From the NCBI GenBank assembly GCA_025356815.1, contig JANXQL010000016.1:1-38973 (forward strand): 38,973 nucleotides of DNA. The letters run 5' to 3'. This document shows positions 1,860 through 37,739 of the stretch, one piece after another (the stretch's first letter is position 1; each line of letters opens with the position of its first letter). Under the pieces are notes generated by a model that did no database searches, was not told where the DNA came from, and worked only from the letters and a program-made list of their open reading frames with translations. A program made the translations under genes and the position numbers. The DNA comes from Pseudomonadota bacterium (GTDB lineage: Bacteria > Pseudomonadota > Gammaproteobacteria > Steroidobacterales > Steroidobacteraceae).

Positions 1860-3566
1860 ATGCGCCTCCGTCACGCCTTGCTCGCCCTGCTCTGCACCTT
1901 TGGCGCCGCCTCGGCACCTGCGGCTGCAAAGCCCGCCCCGGCCGATTACGACCTGGTGATCAGCCACGGACACCTCGTCGACGGCAGCGGCTCGCCGTGG
2001 TTTGCCGCCGACATCGGAATCAGGGGCGGCCGCATCGCGACAATCGGCAACCTCGCGAAGGCGAGCGCCAAGCGACGCATCGATGCCGGCGGCCGCGTCG
2101 TCGCGCCCGGCTTCATCGACATGCTCGGCCAGTCCGAAATCTCCATCCTGGTCGACCCCCGGCTGCCGTCGAAGATCTACCAAGGCATCACGACCGAGAT
2201 CACCGGCGAGGGCGATTCGATCGCACCCCTGCTCGGCGAGGCACGCACCGAGATGCAGATGGGCTTCGACCGCTACCAGATCAAGCCCGACTGGACCGAC
2301 TTTGCGGGCTACTTCCGCCGCCTTGAGCAGCAGGGCATCGGCATCAACCTCGCCTCCTACGTCGGCGCAACGACCATCCGCAAGGTGGTCATCGGCACCA
2401 CCAACCGGCCGCCCACCGCGACAGAACTGCAGCGGATGCGCGCGCTGGTTCGCGACGCGATGCACCAGGGCGCCATCGGCGTGTCGAGCTCGCTGGAGTA
2501 CTCGCCGGCGCCGTACGCGAGTACCGAGGAGCTGATCGCGCTCGCCAGCGAGGCCGCGCCCTTTGGCGGCATCTACGCCACTCACCTTCGCTCGGAGGGC
2601 GACGGCATGGACGCGGCGCTCGACGAGGCGTTCCGGATCGGGCGCGAGGCGCACGTGCCGGTCGAAATCTGGCACCTGAAGATCGCCGGCAAGCGCAACT
2701 GGGGGCGGATGCCCGCGATCGTCGCGCGCATCGAGGCCGCCCGCGCAAGCGGACTGGACGTCGCCGCCGACACCTATGCCTACCCGGCCTGGTTCAACGG
2801 CATGTCAGCCTTCGTGCCGCCCTGGGCGCACGATGGCGGCACGGCGAAGATGGTCGAACGACTGAAGGACCCGGCGACGCGCGAGCGGGTCCGCAAGGAC
2901 ATGCTGACCCCGAGCAGCGACTGGGACAACGAGTGGGAGGAAGTCACCGGCCCCGAGGGCGTGCTGATCGGCGTCACCAACAATCCGGCGTTGCACGGCC
3001 TGCAGGGCAAGACGGTGCAGCAGATCGCCACCGCGCGCGGACGCGACCCGCTCGACACGCTGCTCGACATCCTGGTCGAGGACGGTGGCGGCACCGAGTG
3101 CGCCGTCTTCGGCATGAGCGAGGACGACGTCGCACTCGCGCTGATGCAGCCGTGGACCTCCGTGAACAACGACAGCTCCGGCACGGCCACCGACGGTCTG
3201 CTCGGCGCCGAGCACCCGCATCCGCGCGCCTACGGCACTTTCCCGCGCATCCTGCGCAAGTACGTCCGCGAGGAACACAAGCTCACGCTCGAGGATGCGG
3301 TGCGCAAGTTCACATCACTGCCGGCCGCCCGGGTCCGCCTCGCCGATCGCGGCCTGATCAAGCAGGGCCTCTGGGCGGACCTGGTCATCTTCGATCCGGC
3401 GACGGTGGCCGACCGCGCGACGTTCGAGTCGCCCAACCAGCTGTCGAGCGGCATGCAGTGGGTGCTGGTCAACGGCGTGCCGGTGATCGAAGACGGTCGC
3501 ATGACGGGCGCGCGGCCTGGCCGCGTGTTGCGCGGGGCCGGCTATCGGGCGCCGCCTTCGCACTAA
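1860..3566 (+). CDS. Amidohydrolase, N-acyl-D-amino-acid deacylase-like
   Basis: A 568-residue member of the amidohydrolase superfamily nearest to D-aminoacylases, which hydrolyse N-acyl-D-amino acids. The ATG at 1860 gives a signal peptide (MRLRHALLALLCTFG to about Ala23), so the enzyme is probably periplasmic. The N-terminal beta-sandwich strand carries DLVISHGHLVDGSG. The barrel carries ATHLRSEGDG and EIWHLKIAG, matching the metal-binding histidines of D-aminoacylases, and VNNDSSG sits where the catalytic Asp is expected. The usual HxH after GFID is replaced by GFIDMLGQSE, and the metal-bridging Cys region reads TEITGEGDS. This looks like a distinct subfamily rather than random decay, because the remaining motifs are intact. 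Substrate is unknown; dipeptide or D-amino-acid derivatives are plausible. Confidence 0.8.
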   Translation: MRLRHALLALLCTFGAASAPAAAKPAPADYDLVISHGHLVDGSGSPWFAADIGIRGGRIATIGNLAKASAKRRIDAGGRVVAPGFIDMLGQSEISILVDPRLPSKIYQGITTEITGEGDSIAPLLGEARTEMQMGFDRYQIKPDWTDFAGYFRRLEQQGIGINLASYVGATTIRKVVIGTTNRPPTATELQRMRALVRDAMHQGAIGVSSSLEYSPAPYASTEELIALASEAAPFGGIYATHLRSEGDGMDAALDEAFRIGREAHVPVEIWHLKIAGKRNWGRMPAIVARIEAARASGLDVAADTYAYPAWFNGMSAFVPPWAHDGGTAKMVERLKDPATRERVRKDMLTPSSDWDNEWEEVTGPEGVLIGVTNNPALHGLQGKTVQQIATARGRDPLDTLLDILVEDGGGTECAVFGMSEDDVALALMQPWTSVNNDSSGTATDGLLGAEHPHPRAYGTFPRILRKYVREEHKLTLEDAVRKFTSLPAARVRLADRGLIKQGLWADLVIFDPATVADRATFESPNQLSSGMQWVLVNGVPVIEDGRMTGARPGRVLRGAGYRAPPSH

Positions 3567-29424: not shown

Positions 29425-31956
29425 TCAAGTCTTCGGCAGCGTCACGCCGCGCTGACCCTGATACTTGCCGGCACGATCGGCGTAGGACGTGCTGCACACC
29501 TCGTCCGACTCGAAGAACAGCATCTGCGCGACACCTTCGTGCGCGTAGATCTTCGCAGGCAGCGTCGTGGTGTTGGAGAACTCGAGGGTGACATGCCCCT
29601 CCCACTCCGGCTCCAGGGGCGTGACGTTGACGATGATGCCGCAGTTGCGGACGAAGACGCCGGCCTGCAGGGCGAAGTTGCCGGCCTCCGGCACCGTCAG
29701 GCAGAACACGTCATGGACGCCCGTCACCGGCCGGATCGACGCCACCTTGTGGTTGCGCACCGCGTGGCGGACGGCGAACGTGCCGGTGCCGGGACTGCCA
29801 GTGCGCCGGCGGGCTGCCTGCGCCTGCTGCGCGCCGCGCGACCGGTCACCCTTCGCCCACGCAGCGCCCATGACCGCCGCGCGGCGCGCTGCGTCGAATT
29901 CCTCGCCAGGCGCCTCGCTGTCGTGCCGGCGAAGCTGCTCCGGCGCATCCAGCCGGACGATGTTGGTCGGATAGTTGTTGCGGCGATCCTGGTCGAGGTG
30001 GTGGCGATGAGCGCCCGGTCTCTCGGCATAGGTTCCGTGACGCAGGTTCCACTCGTCGCCGAGCTGATGGGTCGGCAGCAACTGGCCCGTCAGCGGCTGG
30101 TATGCCGTCTCGTGACCACCCCGCGACTGCCGGTACAGGGGCATCAGCGAATCTCCCGCCCGCAGCGCCTGCGCCGCCACCATGCGGCCGTCGCGGGTCA
30201 GGAACAGATGATCCGGAGTCGCGTGAACGACGGCGCCATCGTCCAGCTCGATCTCGAGCAGCGAGTCGCGGCCGATGTAGCGCGGCGCCTCGAGCCTGGA
30301 CACGATCATGCGGCCCTGCGCGCCGATACTGTAGCCAAAGAATACCTCGCCGCTGTCGGCGCGCCGCGCCATATCCTCGAGCGTCGCACTCGAGCCGTTG
30401 GCGAGCGCGACCTGAGTGTCGCCGCGAAAGCACCGGGCGTAGGTTGAATTGTGAACGATGAGTCCGTTGGCGAGGAAATTGTGCAGGCGTGAAATGGAGA
30501 TGTCATACACCTCGTCTTCGCCAGCGGGCTGGATCGATTCGACGACATCCCACAGCGGCCCGTCGGCAAGCGCAGGCGTTGCCCCCTCACCGGTTGCTCC
30601 CGACACTGCCGGCGCTTCATGCAGGGACACTGATGGGCGCGCAGTCGCGCCAGCGGCGGCGCGCTGCACCGACTGGCACGCTTCACGCGCAAGCGCAGCG
30701 ACATCGCGCGCGAGCAGCGACGCGGTCTGCGCCTCGAGCCGACGCTGCTTGATCGAGCCCGACACGAATCCGACGCGTCCTGCGAAGCGCAAGATCTGCG
30801 CCTGGTCGGTGATCTGCACCGAGCAGGCCGGCGCGCCGACTGCCGAGGCGGTGTCCCTGAGCACGGCCAGTACGCCGAAACGCAGCAGTAGGTGCTGGAC
30901 GTCCTCGGCGAGGCGTCGCGACTTCGAGCAGTACTCGAGGCACGCGTCCTCGCCCTGACGATAGTGCCCGCCATCCCCTGCGAAGAGCGACTGCAGGAAG
31001 AGTCGCACCGACTCGCGCGGGGCCATGAAGACTGCCTGTGGCACACAGGCGGCTGAGGCGTCGCCATTCAAGTCGTATTTCGCAAGCCAGGCCGCCGCGC
31101 GACTGGCTGGCGGCATTTCGCCCTGGCTTTGATCGTTGCCGGGGCAGCGCCCCGTCACGGCCTCGCGCGTGACCTCGTCAGGCCCCGTCGTGGCCACGCA
31201 CGCTGCAAGCAGCGCCGCCTGCCGCGGGTCTTCCGCGGCGAGCACGGGGCTGCCCCCGGGCGTGGCGCACTGCCCCGCGGCGATCATCATGCCCAGCAGC
31301 GATGCCTCCCAGTCAGGCAGCGGGGTGTGGCCGAAGACCGGCACCTCGCGTGCGGCCGCGATCCGGTCGCCGACCTGCAGTTCCCCGAGTGGCTTCCAGC
31401 CGTCGAGCTGTCGGAACGGATGATTGGCCGTCGCCCGGATGCGAAGCCCGGAACGGGTCTGCAGCTCGAACACCGGCTTGCGGCCCTGCACCATGAAGGC
31501 AGTGACGCTCGCGGGCTTGAGCTGCCAGTCCTCCAGCGCGAGCGTCGCGCGCCCGAAGCGCATCTCGGTGATCGGCAGGTAGGCGCCCGTGTCGGCGTCG
31601 ACCACGCGGGTGTCGCCCGTGACGCACTTGCCCAGGCACACGACGAGCGTGCTGCGCGGGATCCGGAAATACTCCACGGTTCGCGCCAAGGCGAACGAGT
31701 TCGGCGGAATGATGCACACGTCCGCATTGACGTCGACGAAGCTCGCCGGATCAAACGCCTTCGGGTCGACGATCGTCGAGTTGATGTTCGTGAAGATCTT
31801 GAACTCGCCCGCGCAGCGCACGTCGTAGCCGTAGCTCGAGGTCCCGTACGATACGATCTTGCGGCCATCGATCTCGCGCACCTGGCCGGGCTCGAATGGC
31901 TCGATCATGCCGGCGGCAGCCTGGCGACGGATCCAGTGGTCTGACTTGATGCTCAT
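29425..31956 (-). CDS. dcd: dCTP deaminase precursor interrupted by two inteins
   Basis: Encodes an 843-residue precursor. The host protein, dCTP deaminase, converts dCTP to dUTP for dTTP synthesis. Extein parts are residues 1-110 (starting [11 protein letters not shown] and ending VVCLGK), 504-508 (STYAR) and 772-843 (from [20 protein letters not shown]). Joined, they give 187 residues, the normal Dcd length, and restore the uninterrupted family segment CLGKSTYARCGIIVNV. By alignment with Escherichia coli Dcd (active residues Ser111, Arg115, Glu138), the catalytic residues are Ser504, Arg508 and Glu792, so each intein splits the active site. Intein 1 is residues 111-503 and intein 2 is 509-771. 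There are no stops or frameshifts. The gene is downstream of mrp on the same strand, a common pairing. Confidence 0.95.
29644..30432 (-). mobile_element. Intein 2 of Dcd (263 aa, HNH-like endonuclease)
   Basis: Residues 509-771 of the precursor. Block A begins Cys509 in [15 protein letters not shown]. Block B is [14 protein letters not shown], with the TxxH as Thr580-Pro-Asp-His583. The region [20 protein letters not shown] (651-669) followed by His678 resembles an HNH homing endonuclease; the position where such inteins often have EH reads EQ. Block F/G is [20 protein letters not shown] then Arg770-Asn771, followed by +1 Cys772 of the extein. The terminal Asn and +1 Cys are proper, but the penultimate residue is Arg instead of His and the block F position usually His is Gly759. 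Splicing is likely given an intact host frame, but efficiency is uncertain. Confidence 0.9.
30448..31626 (-). mobile_element. Intein 1 of Dcd (393 aa, LAGLIDADG-type endonuclease)
   Basis: Residues 111-503 of the precursor. Block A starts Cys111 in [14 protein letters not shown]. Block B contains TANH at residues 176-179. A first dodecapeptide motif [10 protein letters not shown] (220-229) has Ala227 where the catalytic acid is expected; the second, [12 protein letters not shown] (320-331), keeps Asp328. [18 protein letters not shown] (345-362) fits block H. A low-complexity Ala/Gly/Thr stretch (about 434-466) precedes block F. The C-terminal part [19 protein letters not shown] ends His502-Asn503 with +1 Ser504. 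All residues for standard class 1 splicing are present. The endonuclease is probably inactive or impaired because of Ala227. Confidence 0.93.
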
Positions 31957-33118: not shown

Positions 33119-33158
33119 GCGGAGCGCGACCCGGAAGGGCGGCTCGCGCTTGGGCGTA

Positions 33159-33167
33159 TGGCATAAT
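33159..33167 (+). promoter_or_regulatory. Extended -10 promoter directly before the kinase gene
   Basis: TGGCATAAT is an extended -10 element (TGn plus CATAAT). The expected transcription start, five to nine bases downstream, falls at 33172-33176, which is the GTG start codon of the kinase gene. The same nine bases occur before metG at 37778-37786. Confidence 0.55.
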
Positions 33168-33173
33168 TCCGGC

Positions 33174-35564
33174 GTGAAGTTTCTCACGTCCCTAAGAAGC
33201 GAAAGGATCCTTGCCGACCTGAAGTCGAGCCAGGACCCTGCCAGCCCGCAGTTCCGCAAGGCCGTCGAGCGCCTGATCGGACTGGGACGGGACGCCATCC
33301 CGATCGTGATCGAGGCGCTGCCGACGGCCGACAAGCGCGAGACGATGGCGTTTGTCGAGGTGCTCGGCGCGCTGGCGGACGCAAAGACGCTGCCGACGCT
33401 GCTCCATGGCCTCGCCGAGAACAATCCGCGCACGGTGGCCGCCGTCTCGTGGGCGCTTTCCAGCGCGCGAGGATTCCCTCCCAACCTGCTGCTGGAAGCG
33501 CTGAAGGACCCCGACTTCGCCGGGCCGCCGCTGATGGAAGTCATCGCGGCGCACAAGACCCGCATCCCGCTGCGCGAGTTGCTGGCGGCCGCCTATGCCC
33601 AGGACACCGGTGACAAGGCGGCGCTGTTCAAGATCATCGGCGACGTCGCCGACGAGCAGGCGATCCCGGAGCTCCTCTCGCGGCTCGACGGCAAGGACAT
33701 CGCCGTCAGGGTGAACCTGATCCAGATCCTTTGCCGCTTCAATACGCCCGAGGTGCAGGACGCCCTGCTCGGGCAGCTGAAGGACCCGAACAGGGTCGTC
33801 AGGCAGGCCACCCTCGGCGCGCTGCTGAAGATGCCGGCGGTTCTGAACGTAGCCGCGGTGGCGCCGCTGCTCGGCGATCCCGACATCGAGGTCTCGAATC
33901 GTGCGGTTGAGGTCCTGATCCGCGCGAAGAACCCGGAGACGGTCCGCTACCTTGTGCCGGCGCTGCAGGACGAGTCCGAGTTCGCCCGTCGTGCCGCCGT
34001 TGAGGTCCTGAACGAGGTCGGCGATCCCACCTCGATCAAGTACCTGCTGGAGCGGATCAAGGACAGCGACTGGTGGGTGCGCAGCCGTGCCGCCGACGCC
34101 CTCGGCAAGATCGGCGGGCCACGGGTCGTGGATGCGGTTCTCGAACTGGTCAAGGACAAGGACGACGACATCCGCCGCACGGCGATCGAGATCCTCAACC
34201 TCACCAAGGACGAGCGGGCCATCGACCACCTGCTGCAGGCAACCCGCGACTCCGACTGGTGGGTCTGCGAGCGCGCCGTCGACGCGCTCGCCGAAATCGG
34301 CAGTGTGCGGGCCGTTCCGCGCCTGGTCGAGATGCTCAACGGCCAGGTACACACGATCCCGGCCACCATCCGGGCGCTGGCCAAGCTCGGCGACGCGCAG
34401 ACGGTGGATGCCCTGCTGCCGCAACTGGCGCGACCGGAAACGGAAATCCGCGTCGAGGCCATTCACGCCCTGGCCAAGCTCAGCGACGATCGCACCGCCG
34501 AAGCCGTCCGAAACCGCATCCGCAGCGTCGGCGAGCTGTCCACCGACCAGACCATCTCGATGGCCGCCAGCCGCGCGCTGCAGGACCTCGATGCCCGCTT
34601 CTCCACGACTCAGGCGTTCGCCAACCGCAAGACCGAAGCGATCATCGCGGCGCCTGCCCGCACGATGCTGATCGAAAACGCCGACGTGCGGCAGCTGGTG
34701 GAGCAGAACGAAGCGTCCGCGCAGCGCCTGGACATCTCGACGCTGACGCCCGGGGACGTCCTCGATGGCCGCTACAAGTACATCGAGAAGATCGGCAAGG
34801 GCGCATTCGGCACGGTACTGCTGATGGAGGACACGGTCGTCGACGAGCGACTGATCCTTAAATTCCTCAATCCCGCGGTCTCCGGGGACGAGGAAATGAT
34901 GAAGCGCTTCGTGCACGAGCTGCGTTACTCGCGCAAGATCACCCACCGCAACGTCATTCGCATCTACGACTTCCTCTTCATCCGCGGCAACTACGCGATC
35001 TCGATGGAGTACTTCCCCAGCCACACGCTCGGGCAGGAAATCGTCAATGAACAGCCGATGCCGATCGCCAAGGCCGTCAAGTACGGCATCGACATTGCCA
35101 CTGGCATGACCGTGGCGCATCAGGTCGGCATCGTGCACCGCGACCTGAAGCCCGCCAACGTGCTGATCAACGATCAGGGCCTCCTGAAGATCGTCGATTT
35201 CGGCGTGGCCGCCGCGCAAAAGGAAGGCGACGCGCAGCTGACCAAGACCGGCTACGTGATCGGCTCGCCGAAGTACATGGCCCCGGAGCAGATCCTCGGC
35301 AAGCCGGTGGACCCGCGAGCCGACATCTACAGCACCGGCGTGATCCTCTACGAAATGCTGACCGGTGTGCCGCCGTACTCGCGCGGCGACCACATGGCCG
35401 TGATGTACCAGCACGTGCAGGGCAAGGCCAGGATCCCGATCGAGTTGAACCCGCGCCTGCCACAGCAGCTGTCGGAGCTCGTCATGAAGGCGATGGCCGT
35501 CGACAAGATGAAGCGCTTCCAGAGCATGGACGAACTGCGCTCGGCTCTCGAGCGCTTCATCTAG
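33174..35564 (+). CDS. HEAT-repeat serine/threonine protein kinase
   Basis: A 796-residue cytoplasmic protein. Residues 1 to about 470 are tandem HEAT-like repeats, with recurring units such as SDWWVRSRAADALGKIGGPR and SDWWVCERAVDALAEIGSVR, a solenoid for protein binding. The kinase domain runs from about 534 to the C-terminus: glycine loop IGKGAFGTV (540-548), Lys563, helix-C Glu582, HRDLKPAN with catalytic Asp657, DFG at 675-677 and MAPEQ. All catalytic residues are present, so activity is expected. There is no signal peptide, membrane helix or PASTA domain. I use GTG at 33174; the TTG at 33150 would place the start inside the promoter. It heads an operon with two PilT-family ATPases. A role in sensing or regulating pilus retraction is inferred from this context. 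Confidence 0.92.
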   Translation: MKFLTSLRSERILADLKSSQDPASPQFRKAVERLIGLGRDAIPIVIEALPTADKRETMAFVEVLGALADAKTLPTLLHGLAENNPRTVAAVSWALSSARGFPPNLLLEALKDPDFAGPPLMEVIAAHKTRIPLRELLAAAYAQDTGDKAALFKIIGDVADEQAIPELLSRLDGKDIAVRVNLIQILCRFNTPEVQDALLGQLKDPNRVVRQATLGALLKMPAVLNVAAVAPLLGDPDIEVSNRAVEVLIRAKNPETVRYLVPALQDESEFARRAAVEVLNEVGDPTSIKYLLERIKDSDWWVRSRAADALGKIGGPRVVDAVLELVKDKDDDIRRTAIEILNLTKDERAIDHLLQATRDSDWWVCERAVDALAEIGSVRAVPRLVEMLNGQVHTIPATIRALAKLGDAQTVDALLPQLARPETEIRVEAIHALAKLSDDRTAEAVRNRIRSVGELSTDQTISMAASRALQDLDARFSTTQAFANRKTEAIIAAPARTMLIENADVRQLVEQNEASAQRLDISTLTPGDVLDGRYKYIEKIGKGAFGTVLLMEDTVVDERLILKFLNPAVSGDEEMMKRFVHELRYSRKITHRNVIRIYDFLFIRGNYAISMEYFPSHTLGQEIVNEQPMPIAKAVKYGIDIATGMTVAHQVGIVHRDLKPANVLINDQGLLKIVDFGVAAAQKEGDAQLTKTGYVIGSPKYMAPEQILGKPVDPRADIYSTGVILYEMLTGVPPYSRGDHMAVMYQHVQGKARIPIELNPRLPQQLSELVMKAMAVDKMKRFQSMDELRSALERFI

Positions 35565-35576
35565 GGAGAGACCCCG

Positions 35577-36668
35577 ATGCCGCGCATAGACGCGTTCCTG
35601 AAGCTGGGCACCGCACAGGGGTGCTCGGACATCCACCTCGCGGTCGGCGTTCCGCCGATGCTGCGCATGAACGGCGACCTGATGCCGATCCGTTTCCGCA
35701 ACCTTGGCGACGCGGAGCTGGAAGGCTACGTCAGCGAGATCATGACGAAGAAGCAGAGCGAGTCGTTCAAGACCGGCCACGACCTGGACTTCTCGTACGT
35801 CGCCGAGGATGGCGGCCGGTTTCGTGTGAACATCTTCCGCAAGGAAACGGGCGTCGGCGCCGTCTTTCGCGCGATTCCCTCAAGCGTGCCGACGCTGGAC
35901 AGCCTGAACCTGCCGCCGATCGTCAAGAAGCTGCTCGACTACCACCAGGGAATGATCCTGGTGACCGGCTCCACCGGCACAGGCAAGTCGACCACGCTTG
36001 CCGCGATGATCGACGAGATCAACCGCAAGCGCCGACTGAACATCATCAGCCTCGAGGACCCGATCGAGTTCGTGCACCGCAGCCAGGAGGCGCAGATCAT
36101 CCAGCGCGAGTACGGCACGCACGTGCCCTCGTTCGCCGAGGGCGTTCGGGCCGCGATGCGCGAAGACCCGGACGTGATCCTCGTCGGCGAAATGCGCGAT
36201 GCCGAGACGATCCGCATGGCGATGACCGCCGCGGAAACCGGCCACCTCGTGCTCGGCACCCTGCACACGACCAGCGCCACCAAGACCATCGACCGGATCA
36301 TCGACGCGCTCCCCATCGAGGAGCGCGAGCAGACCAAGAGCTTCCTGTCGCAGAGCCTGCTCGCCGTGATCACGCAGGTGCTGGTCAAGCGCGCGGACAG
36401 TCGCTCCCGCCGCGCCGTCTGCGAGATCATGGTGATGAACCGCGCGATCGGCAAGCTGATCCAGACCGATCAGTCGCACCAGATCACCGCGCAGCTGCAG
36501 ACCGGCAAGGACTCTGGTATGCAGACGCTCGACCAGGCACTGATGCTCGGGATCCAGGCCAAGGAACTCGACCCCGACGACGCTTACATCTACGCCGCGG
36601 ACCGCAAGCAGTTCCAGCGCTTCGTGACCGATACGAGCATGCTGCCGAAAAACGAACTCGCCGAGTGA
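35577..36668 (+). CDS. PilT-family retraction ATPase, copy 1
   Basis: A 363-residue hexameric secretion ATPase of the PilT/PilU family, which powers type IV pilus retraction at the inner membrane. Walker A is GSTGTGKST at residues 131-139, the Asp box is SLEDPIEFVH, Walker B is DPDVILVGEMRD and the His box ends LGTLHTTSATKT. The C-terminal motif reads AIGKLIQTD where PilT has AIRNLIREG, so this copy diverges at the segment important for retraction and may be PilU-like. GGGAGAG lies six bases before the ATG. It is 12 bases after the kinase gene and nine bases before the second copy. Confidence 0.92.
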   Translation: MPRIDAFLKLGTAQGCSDIHLAVGVPPMLRMNGDLMPIRFRNLGDAELEGYVSEIMTKKQSESFKTGHDLDFSYVAEDGGRFRVNIFRKETGVGAVFRAIPSSVPTLDSLNLPPIVKKLLDYHQGMILVTGSTGTGKSTTLAAMIDEINRKRRLNIISLEDPIEFVHRSQEAQIIQREYGTHVPSFAEGVRAAMREDPDVILVGEMRDAETIRMAMTAAETGHLVLGTLHTTSATKTIDRIIDALPIEEREQTKSFLSQSLLAVITQVLVKRADSRSRRAVCEIMVMNRAIGKLIQTDQSHQITAQLQTGKDSGMQTLDQALMLGIQAKELDPDDAYIYAADRKQFQRFVTDTSMLPKNELAE

Positions 36669-36677
36669 GGATGCTAC

Positions 36678-37739
36678 ATGGCAGCCATTGACGAGTACCT
36701 CGCCGATGTCCTCAACCGCAAGGGATCGGACCTGCATTTCCTGGCCGGCGACCCGGCCAGGCTGCGCGTCTACGGCGACCTGCAGGCGCTGCGCCCGGAG
36801 CCGCTGAAGGCCGATTTCGTGCGCGAAGCGCTGCTGGAGATCATGCCGCAGAAGGCAATCTCGCGCTTCGAGGAGAAGGACGGCGCCGACTTCGCCTATT
36901 CGGTGCCCGGCCTGGCGCGCTTTCGAGTCAACGTGATGCGCCACCTGCACGGCATGGGCGCGATCTGCCGCGTGATCCCCTCCGCGGCACTGACGCTCGA
37001 CCAACTGAGCATGCCGGACGCGGTGCGCAACATGTGCCGCGTCAACAGCGGCCTGATTCTCGTCACCGGCAAGACCGGCTCCGGCAAGTCGACGACCCTC
37101 GCGGCGATGATCGACGATATCAACACGCGCGTGCAGGGGCATATCCTCACCGTCGAGGACCCGATCGAGTTCGTGCACCAGCGCAAGAGCTGCCTGATCA
37201 GCCAGCGCGAGGTCGGCGTGCATGCGCCATCGTTCTCGGCTGCCGTCCACTCGGCGCTGCGCGAGGATCCGGACGTCGTGCTGGTCGGCGAAATGCGCGA
37301 CCTGGAGACCATCAGCGTCGCGGTCTCCGCGGCAGAGATGGGCATCCTCGTAATGGGCACCCTGCACACCAACGGCGCGTCCGCGACGGTCGATCGCATC
37401 GTCAACGCGTTCCCCTCGGACAAGCAGCCACACGTGCGCACGATGCTCTCCACCAGCCTGCGTGGCGTCATCTCGCAGCAGCTGATCCCGCGCGTCGGGC
37501 AGCCCGGCCGGGTGGCGGCGCTGGAGATCATGGTCAACACGCCGGCGGTTGCCAACCTGATCCGCCAGGGCAAGATCGACCAGCTCGAGAACACCATGCA
37601 AAGCGGTGCCGCGCATGGCATGCGGACGATGGACATGGCGATCACGCAGCTGCTCGAGGCCCGCGCCATCAGCGGCCGGGAAGCCTACCGCAAGGCCATC
37701 AACAAGCAGCGCTTCGAGCAGTACAAGGACGCCCGTTGA
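36678..37739 (+). CDS. PilT-family retraction ATPase, copy 2
   Basis: A 353-residue paralogue of the preceding ATPase. Walker A GKTGSGKST is at the same residues (131-139), followed by VEDPIEFVHQ, DPDVVLVGEMRD and MGTLHTNGASATVDR. Its C-terminal motif AVANLIRQGK is closer to the AIRNLIREGK of PilT than copy 1. The N-terminal domain (MAAIDEYLADVLNRKGSDLH) is of the usual PAS-like type. GAGG lies seven bases before the ATG. The pair may form a PilT/PilU-type system, or serve a separate pilus or secretion machine; no other pilus genes are in the window. Confidence 0.92.
   Translation: MAAIDEYLADVLNRKGSDLHFLAGDPARLRVYGDLQALRPEPLKADFVREALLEIMPQKAISRFEEKDGADFAYSVPGLARFRVNVMRHLHGMGAICRVIPSAALTLDQLSMPDAVRNMCRVNSGLILVTGKTGSGKSTTLAAMIDDINTRVQGHILTVEDPIEFVHQRKSCLISQREVGVHAPSFSAAVHSALREDPDVVLVGEMRDLETISVAVSAAEMGILVMGTLHTNGASATVDRIVNAFPSDKQPHVRTMLSTSLRGVISQQLIPRVGQPGRVAALEIMVNTPAVANLIRQGKIDQLENTMQSGAAHGMRTMDMAITQLLEARAISGREAYRKAINKQRFEQYKDAR

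Follow-up and report, generated by a model that had tools for sequence, protein, structure and literature searches.

Two inteins five residues apart in a dCTP deaminase gene of the Steroidobacteraceae, and the occurrence of both insertions, alone and together, in related bacteria

Inteins have been described before in dCTP deaminases (Dcd). The single Dcd intein of cyanophage vB_AphaS-CL131 excises itself in E. coli, and the paper that describes it mentions intein-bearing dCTP deaminases known from two bacteria, belonging to the Proteobacteria and the Chloroflexi (PMC6293099). Neighbouring inteins have been described in another gene and another domain of life: in haloarchaeal MCM, two homing inteins, MCM-a and MCM-d, sit at neighbouring conserved positions and, like the inteins reported here, are found singly or together in relatives; according to the same source, neighbouring endonucleases that are both active hinder one another in homing (PMC10643990). 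Here we describe a bacterial Dcd gene in which these two situations meet.

The stretch of DNA that was analysed (38,973 nt, hereafter the window) holds one uninterrupted ORF of 843 aa with an ATG start (29425..31956, minus strand; taken from the ORF list, with the coordinates of its parts rechecked). It encodes a full 187-aa Dcd with two insertions, a LAGLIDADG-type intein of 393 aa at what we call site A and an HNH-type intein of 263 aa at site B, and the pentapeptide STYAR alone separates the two inteins. The parts of the locus are as follows.

31627..31956, minus strand: N-extein of Dcd, residues 1-110, ending in ...VVCLGK (ORF, 4DHK match, empty homologues)
30448..31626, minus strand: intein A, residues 111-503, 393 aa, Cys1 ... 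VHN, LAGLIDADG/DnaB-type, +1 residue Ser504 (Pfam and TIGR models)
31270..31299, minus strand: LAGLIDADG motif 1 of intein A, residues 220-229, Ala in place of the acidic residue
30967..30999, minus strand: LAGLIDADG motif 2 of intein A, residues 320-330, acidic residue retained
30433..30447, minus strand: middle extein STYAR, residues 504-508, 15 nt, TCAACCTACGCCCGG
29644..30432, minus strand: intein B, residues 509-771, 263 aa, Cys1 ... VRN, HNH-type, endonuclease truncated, +1 residue Cys772
29920..30009, minus strand: HNH remnant of intein B, residues 650-679
29425..29643, minus strand: C-extein of Dcd, residues 772-843, plus stop codon
32012..33082, minus strand: Mrp/ApbC-like P-loop NTPase gene, upstream, given for context (PF10609, E 3.7e-101)

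This is the anatomy that the sequence-only reading had proposed, and it is borne out by the single ORF, the Pfam and TIGR intein models, the match to the B. thailandensis Dcd 4DHK and the empty homologues, which read GKSTYARCGIIVN at the insertion region with nothing in between. The alignment of the extein to Dcd families that this reading had suggested as a check places residues 1-110 and 772-843 on 4DHK in two stretches (phmmer, E 1.2e-90) and gives 114.2 bits with TIGR02274 (dCTP deaminase), above the cut-off of 92.8. The inteins match Hint/intein profiles, with two stretches each for PF14890, TIGR01445 and TIGR01443. As had also been proposed, the insertions (slashes in GK/STYAR/CG) flank the active-site Ser and Arg, which correspond to the catalytic residues Ser111 and Arg115 of E. 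coli Dcd. It follows from this anatomy that an active Dcd would need both inteins to be spliced out. No second Dcd was matched in a search of the 207 contigs of the organism's own genome, which does contain a separate dUTPase. Further along the window, an 804-aa ORF on the plus strand (33150-35564) carries HEAT repeats and a protein kinase domain and is adjoined by two ORFs for T2SSE-type ATPases (35577-36668 and 36678-37739).

We consider it very probable that a working Dcd was invaded by two independent mobile inteins at neighbouring codons, that both excise themselves, and that the two came together in one allele at least three times in the family. The targets of both inteins would be adjacent codons in one highly conserved active-site motif, and the middle extein would be only five residues long because both inteins target that same motif. 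After translation, intein A would be excised through Cys111, Ser504 and Asn503 and intein B through Cys509, Cys772 and Asn771, and the exteins of 110, 5 and 72 residues would thereby be joined into the 187-aa Dcd. The two inteins align with each other over short stretches only (E 0.02 or worse). One might instead picture a single giant composite intein from C111 to N771, which would also remove STYAR and leave a 182-aa protein; formally, its two ends could serve as the beginning and the end of an intein, but nothing more speaks for it, A and B both possess a complete set of N- and C-terminal blocks, and STYAR, which holds the active-site Ser and Arg, is retained in all three double alleles described below, so that the probability of this reading is negligible.

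Residues 111-503 match Pfam Intein_splicing (PF14890) and LAGLIDADG_3 in a profile search. Intein A shows all class 1 hallmarks, i.e., Cys1 (CVTGDT...), block B TANH at residues 176-179 and a VHN end with the penultimate His, followed by Ser, and its block F reads HNF. Among solved sequences, the intein that it matches best is one from DnaB, and it shares 31.5% identity with the DnaB intein of its own genome. The latter, 405 aa long, lies in an 878-aa replicative helicase DnaB (contig C123, 1294-3930, minus strand). An acidic residue in both motifs was taken as the mark of an active LAGLIDADG endonuclease; intein A has none in motif 1 and keeps the Asp of motif 2. In the sister allele of G005, motif 1 reads LLGMMIAEGQ. 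Both acids are kept in 10 of the 15 A alleles of the family (one of them, in G165, with an internal deletion) and not in the other five.

Intein B shows the core class 1 hallmarks: Cys1 (CFRGDT...), block B TPDH at residues 580-583 and a terminal Asn, then Cys772. The usual, not strictly required, His is absent, with Arg at the penultimate position (VRN) and Gly in block F (GNF). Many site-B relatives likewise lack the penultimate His and end in VRN, VKN or VSN. Because this is common in site-B inteins, including that of CL131 (VKN), we do not take it as a loss of splicing. An active HNH endonuclease would have the HNH motif and also the downstream part of the full-length relatives; in intein B, an HNH remnant is kept and approximately 110 downstream residues of its 375-386-aa relatives are missing. 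Among the 27 B-only inteins of the family that were measured, six have a length of 375-376 aa, and a full-length endonuclease is absent from most B-only alleles. Thus, of the hallmarks listed in the sequence-only reading, Cys1, TxxH, the terminal Asn and Ser or Cys at +1 stand, with the correction that the penultimate residue of B is Arg and not the usual His and that both homing endonucleases in the source genome look decayed. Since they look decayed, the two inteins are probably passed on chiefly together with the gene that carries them. The Dcd of CL131 (MG209611, gp069) carries its intein exactly at site B (STYAR/C ... N/CGII), and this intein is also of the HNH type, with a VKN/C end, and is homologous over its length (26% identity to B of the window and 33% to B of locus L042), but it is the only intein in that gene and site A is empty.

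The extein is under strong constraint: between the window and the A-only allele of G005, dN is 0.009 and dS 0.76 (dN/dS 0.012). Consequently, Dcd still works or did until recently, and such strong selection on the extein suggests that splicing works. In the same comparison, dN/dS of intein A is 0.11 for the N-terminal and 0.08 for the C-terminal splicing part and 0.345 for the endonuclease region. For intein B, the comparison with G008 yields 0.12 and 0.16 for the splicing parts and 0.40 for the HNH region, although the C-terminal splicing part compared with G001 (0.40) runs contrary to this pattern of constrained splicing parts; synonymous sites are near saturation in several of these comparisons. 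Endonuclease decay is not tied to the double state, since the endonuclease region of A shows the same looseness when two A-only alleles are compared (G005 and G003, 0.44) and is tight between the double of G159 and A-only G169 (0.05). These data also bear on the idea that the gene is dead or dying, i.e., that one or both inteins have lost the ability to splice and leave an inert precursor. The two non-canonical residues of intein B, the penultimate Arg and the block F Gly, and the decay of both endonucleases would fit it. However, the low dN/dS of the extein at a dS of 0.76, the intact frame of 843 aa, the frequency of VRN, VKN and VSN at site B and the published splicing of the VKN intein of CL131 (PMC6293099) make a dead gene very improbable. 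An AlphaFold model of the precursor, built from 68 sequences in a MAFFT alignment that places the short core imperfectly, has pLDDT values mostly of 80-98 in the inteins, approximately 40 or less in the B endonuclease remnant and mostly below 50-60 in the exteins, and a Foldseek search with it returned intein structures, with 4DHK lower down. As the exteins mostly fall below a pLDDT of 50, the model is no proof that the two Hint domains could function at such a short distance from each other.

The family was surveyed by a protein search of 98 relatives and of 217 genomes, followed by a search for the core pattern over the same 217 genomes. The pattern was matched in 178 of them, one match (G146) being spurious by its letters; the 39 genomes without a match may be incomplete or have divergent codons. 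Among the matched genomes, 12 carry A only, 29 carry B only, three carry both (the source genome G000, G106 and G159) and approximately 133 carry neither. We regard the tally of A alleles as complete because A alleles rank top in the protein search of the 217 genomes; the B tally is complete by itself. Some relatives thus have one of the inteins by itself, inserted at precisely the codon used in the window, and the two further doubles, loci L113 (G106) and L112 (G159), belong to two other genera. The recurrence at the same codons and the two additional double alleles show that the insertions are not due to chance, and they go beyond what had been read from the window: the double is not unique and its two sites are occupied singly in relatives. 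They also bear on a possible assembly artefact, in which A-only and B-only strain variants would have been merged into one contig. The genome is in 207 contigs and the genus includes A-only as well as B-only relatives, both of which would fit such a merger. Yet the sequence common to the two types of allele at the join would be no longer than 15 nt, direct repeats within the gene reach 12 nt at most, and the double occurs in three assemblies of three genera with differing core codons (TCAACCTACGCCCGG, TCGACCTACGCAAGA and AGCACGTACGCGCGC), which renders an artefact extremely improbable.

Outside this survey, a search of genome contigs gave 580 relatives; from the best 80, 79 loci were extracted, of which five had A only, seven B only, none both and 67 were empty, and the 80th (L034) has the length of a single-intein gene and a site-B end. 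Several named loci of this search come from genomes that also have a G handle in the family survey. At the order level, the A pattern occurred in 13 of 396 genomes, all in the same family. At the class level it occurred in four of 369, i.e., the window, the A-only genome G646 and two matches that were set aside, one (G571) on its letters alone and one (G794) because the only ORF of at least 200 aa at the locus is no Dcd. Phage records (108 matched) and plasmids (25 matched) gave no match over 80% of the query. Viral contigs contained no double by the exact pattern. Among the best 80 of 247 viral relatives, 66 were empty by pattern and, on re-reading, 11 more were empty and two had a single site-B intein, so no double was found among the 79 viral loci read; the remaining locus (L240) has an ordinary match length. 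Site A was not found occupied in viruses, either among these best 80 loci or by the double pattern. The two viral Dcd genes with a short site-B intein, L179 (match 2501-3562) and L208 (ORF 2498-3496), lie on contigs of 270 kb and 165 kb, respectively. Together with the full-length intein of CL131, they make viruses a possible vehicle for intein B.

The phylogeny of the inteins argues for separate origins of the three doubles. In the intein A tree (18 rows), A of the window is sister to that of the A-only genome G005 of the same genus (support 95/99) and A of G159 to that of A-only G169, also of its own genus (85/91), and A of G106 stands alone without a partner from its genus. In the intein B tree (32 rows), B of the window groups with B-only G006, G008 and G014 of the same genus (100/98), B of G159 with B-only G166 of its genus (96/69) and B of G106, on long branches, with B-only G132 of its genus (90/79). 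Trees constrained to a single clade of the three doubles are rejected, with p-AU 3.84e-15 for A (17 rows) and 1.45e-4 for B (32 rows). Supports are moderate in places, branches are long, that of B in G106 above all, and the tested group was named after the first trees had been made. With these caveats, a single bacterial family appears to have acquired the double insertion on at least three occasions.

In homing, an intein is copied when a cut is repaired and the allele that carries the intein serves as the template. As A and B alleles share only 15 nt between the two insertion points, ordinary repair should often swap one intein for the other rather than add a second. Three doubles exist all the same, and the second intein may have entered by annealing inside the 15-nt core. 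In G106 and G159, the probable later arrival is A, as its endonuclease motifs are intact in both (L113 and L112), whereas their B inteins (191 and 196 aa, respectively) are mini-inteins without the HNH region. A full-length B is absent from all three doubles, and both acids of A are kept in two of them. The Ser codon in the core of G106 is AGC, which occurs in B-only and empty relatives and in none of the 12 A-only alleles. Motif state, B length and this codon are, however, only hints as to the order of entry. A mosaic of A-allele and B-allele extein was looked for, but the nearest relative, at 89% nucleotide identity, is too diverged to tell. The decayed B endonucleases of the doubles would agree with the mutual obstruction of homing described for neighbouring active endonucleases (PMC10643990), although most B-only alleles are also without a full-length endonuclease.

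With independent occupancy of the two sites, 2.7 doubles would be expected and three were observed (Fisher p 0.74); in the four genera where both types occur, the expected number is 3.7. No mutual exclusion of sites A and B was seen, which with only three doubles is a weak test. Dcd converts dCTP to dUTP and so feeds dTTP synthesis, and the pair might be thought to act as a two-key switch, the inteins splicing at different rates or under different stresses, with Dcd active only when both allow it and the arrangement kept for that reason. M. smegmatis DnaB does have two differently behaving inteins, one of them responsive to stress (PMC6195587), and here both inteins use Cys1 and conservation is for the most part higher in the splicing parts than in the endonuclease parts. 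Any intein in a gene that the cell needs should, however, show such constraint on its splicing parts, the doubles are not enriched, and the 12 A-only, 29 B-only and approximately 133 empty relatives manage without the pair. Regulation by splicing is possible, but we deem a switch for which the arrangement is kept unlikely. Quite unlikely, too, is the more specific proposal of an AND lock on the Dcd active site, assembled repeatedly and kept for control of dUTP and dTTP, in which new doubles would form despite the 15-nt spacing and so demand a repair route nearly free of homology. The Dcd double shows how closely two inteins can be spaced within one protein, and it suggests that five residues are enough for an internal extein with a splicing reaction on either side. 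As one family holds single, double and empty alleles, it becomes possible to test the competition of neighbouring homing sites, the entry of a second intein without erasure of the first and the order of splicing of adjacent inteins, and a natural middle extein of five residues is a lead for three-piece protein ligation.

Neither a double-intein Dcd nor a middle extein this short was found in searches of mainly openly available full texts, which did turn up the single-intein Dcd of CL131; this is in line with the sequence-only reading, which knew of no described Dcd with twin inteins and had called the middle extein extraordinarily short. The stated spacings elsewhere support the latter: in the T. 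kodakarensis DNA polymerase and P. abyssi CDC21, each with two inteins in one gene, the middle exteins are 85 and 48 residues long, respectively, as given in PMC8966425, compared to five here. In RFC (sites a and b) and in the archaeal and yeast V-ATPase (sites a and b), close sites in conserved parts lie approximately 25 and 20 residues apart, i.e., four to five times the Dcd spacing, and these figures refer to insertion sites, not shown there to be filled in one gene (PMC2814812). M. smegmatis DnaB is, like the Dcd described here, a bacterial enzyme with two unlike inteins, but it is another host protein, and its splicing rates and stress response have been measured (PMC6195587), whereas the Dcd double is known from sequence. 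The haloarchaeal MCM pair that was studied differs in having two active endonucleases (PMC10643990), whereas in Dcd the two sites are 15 nt apart and no full-length B endonuclease is present in any of the three doubles. Genes with two inteins are, therefore, already known, and what is new is that ordinary inteins occur here in an extreme and repeatedly assembled arrangement, with a spacing far shorter than those stated for the polymerase and CDC21.
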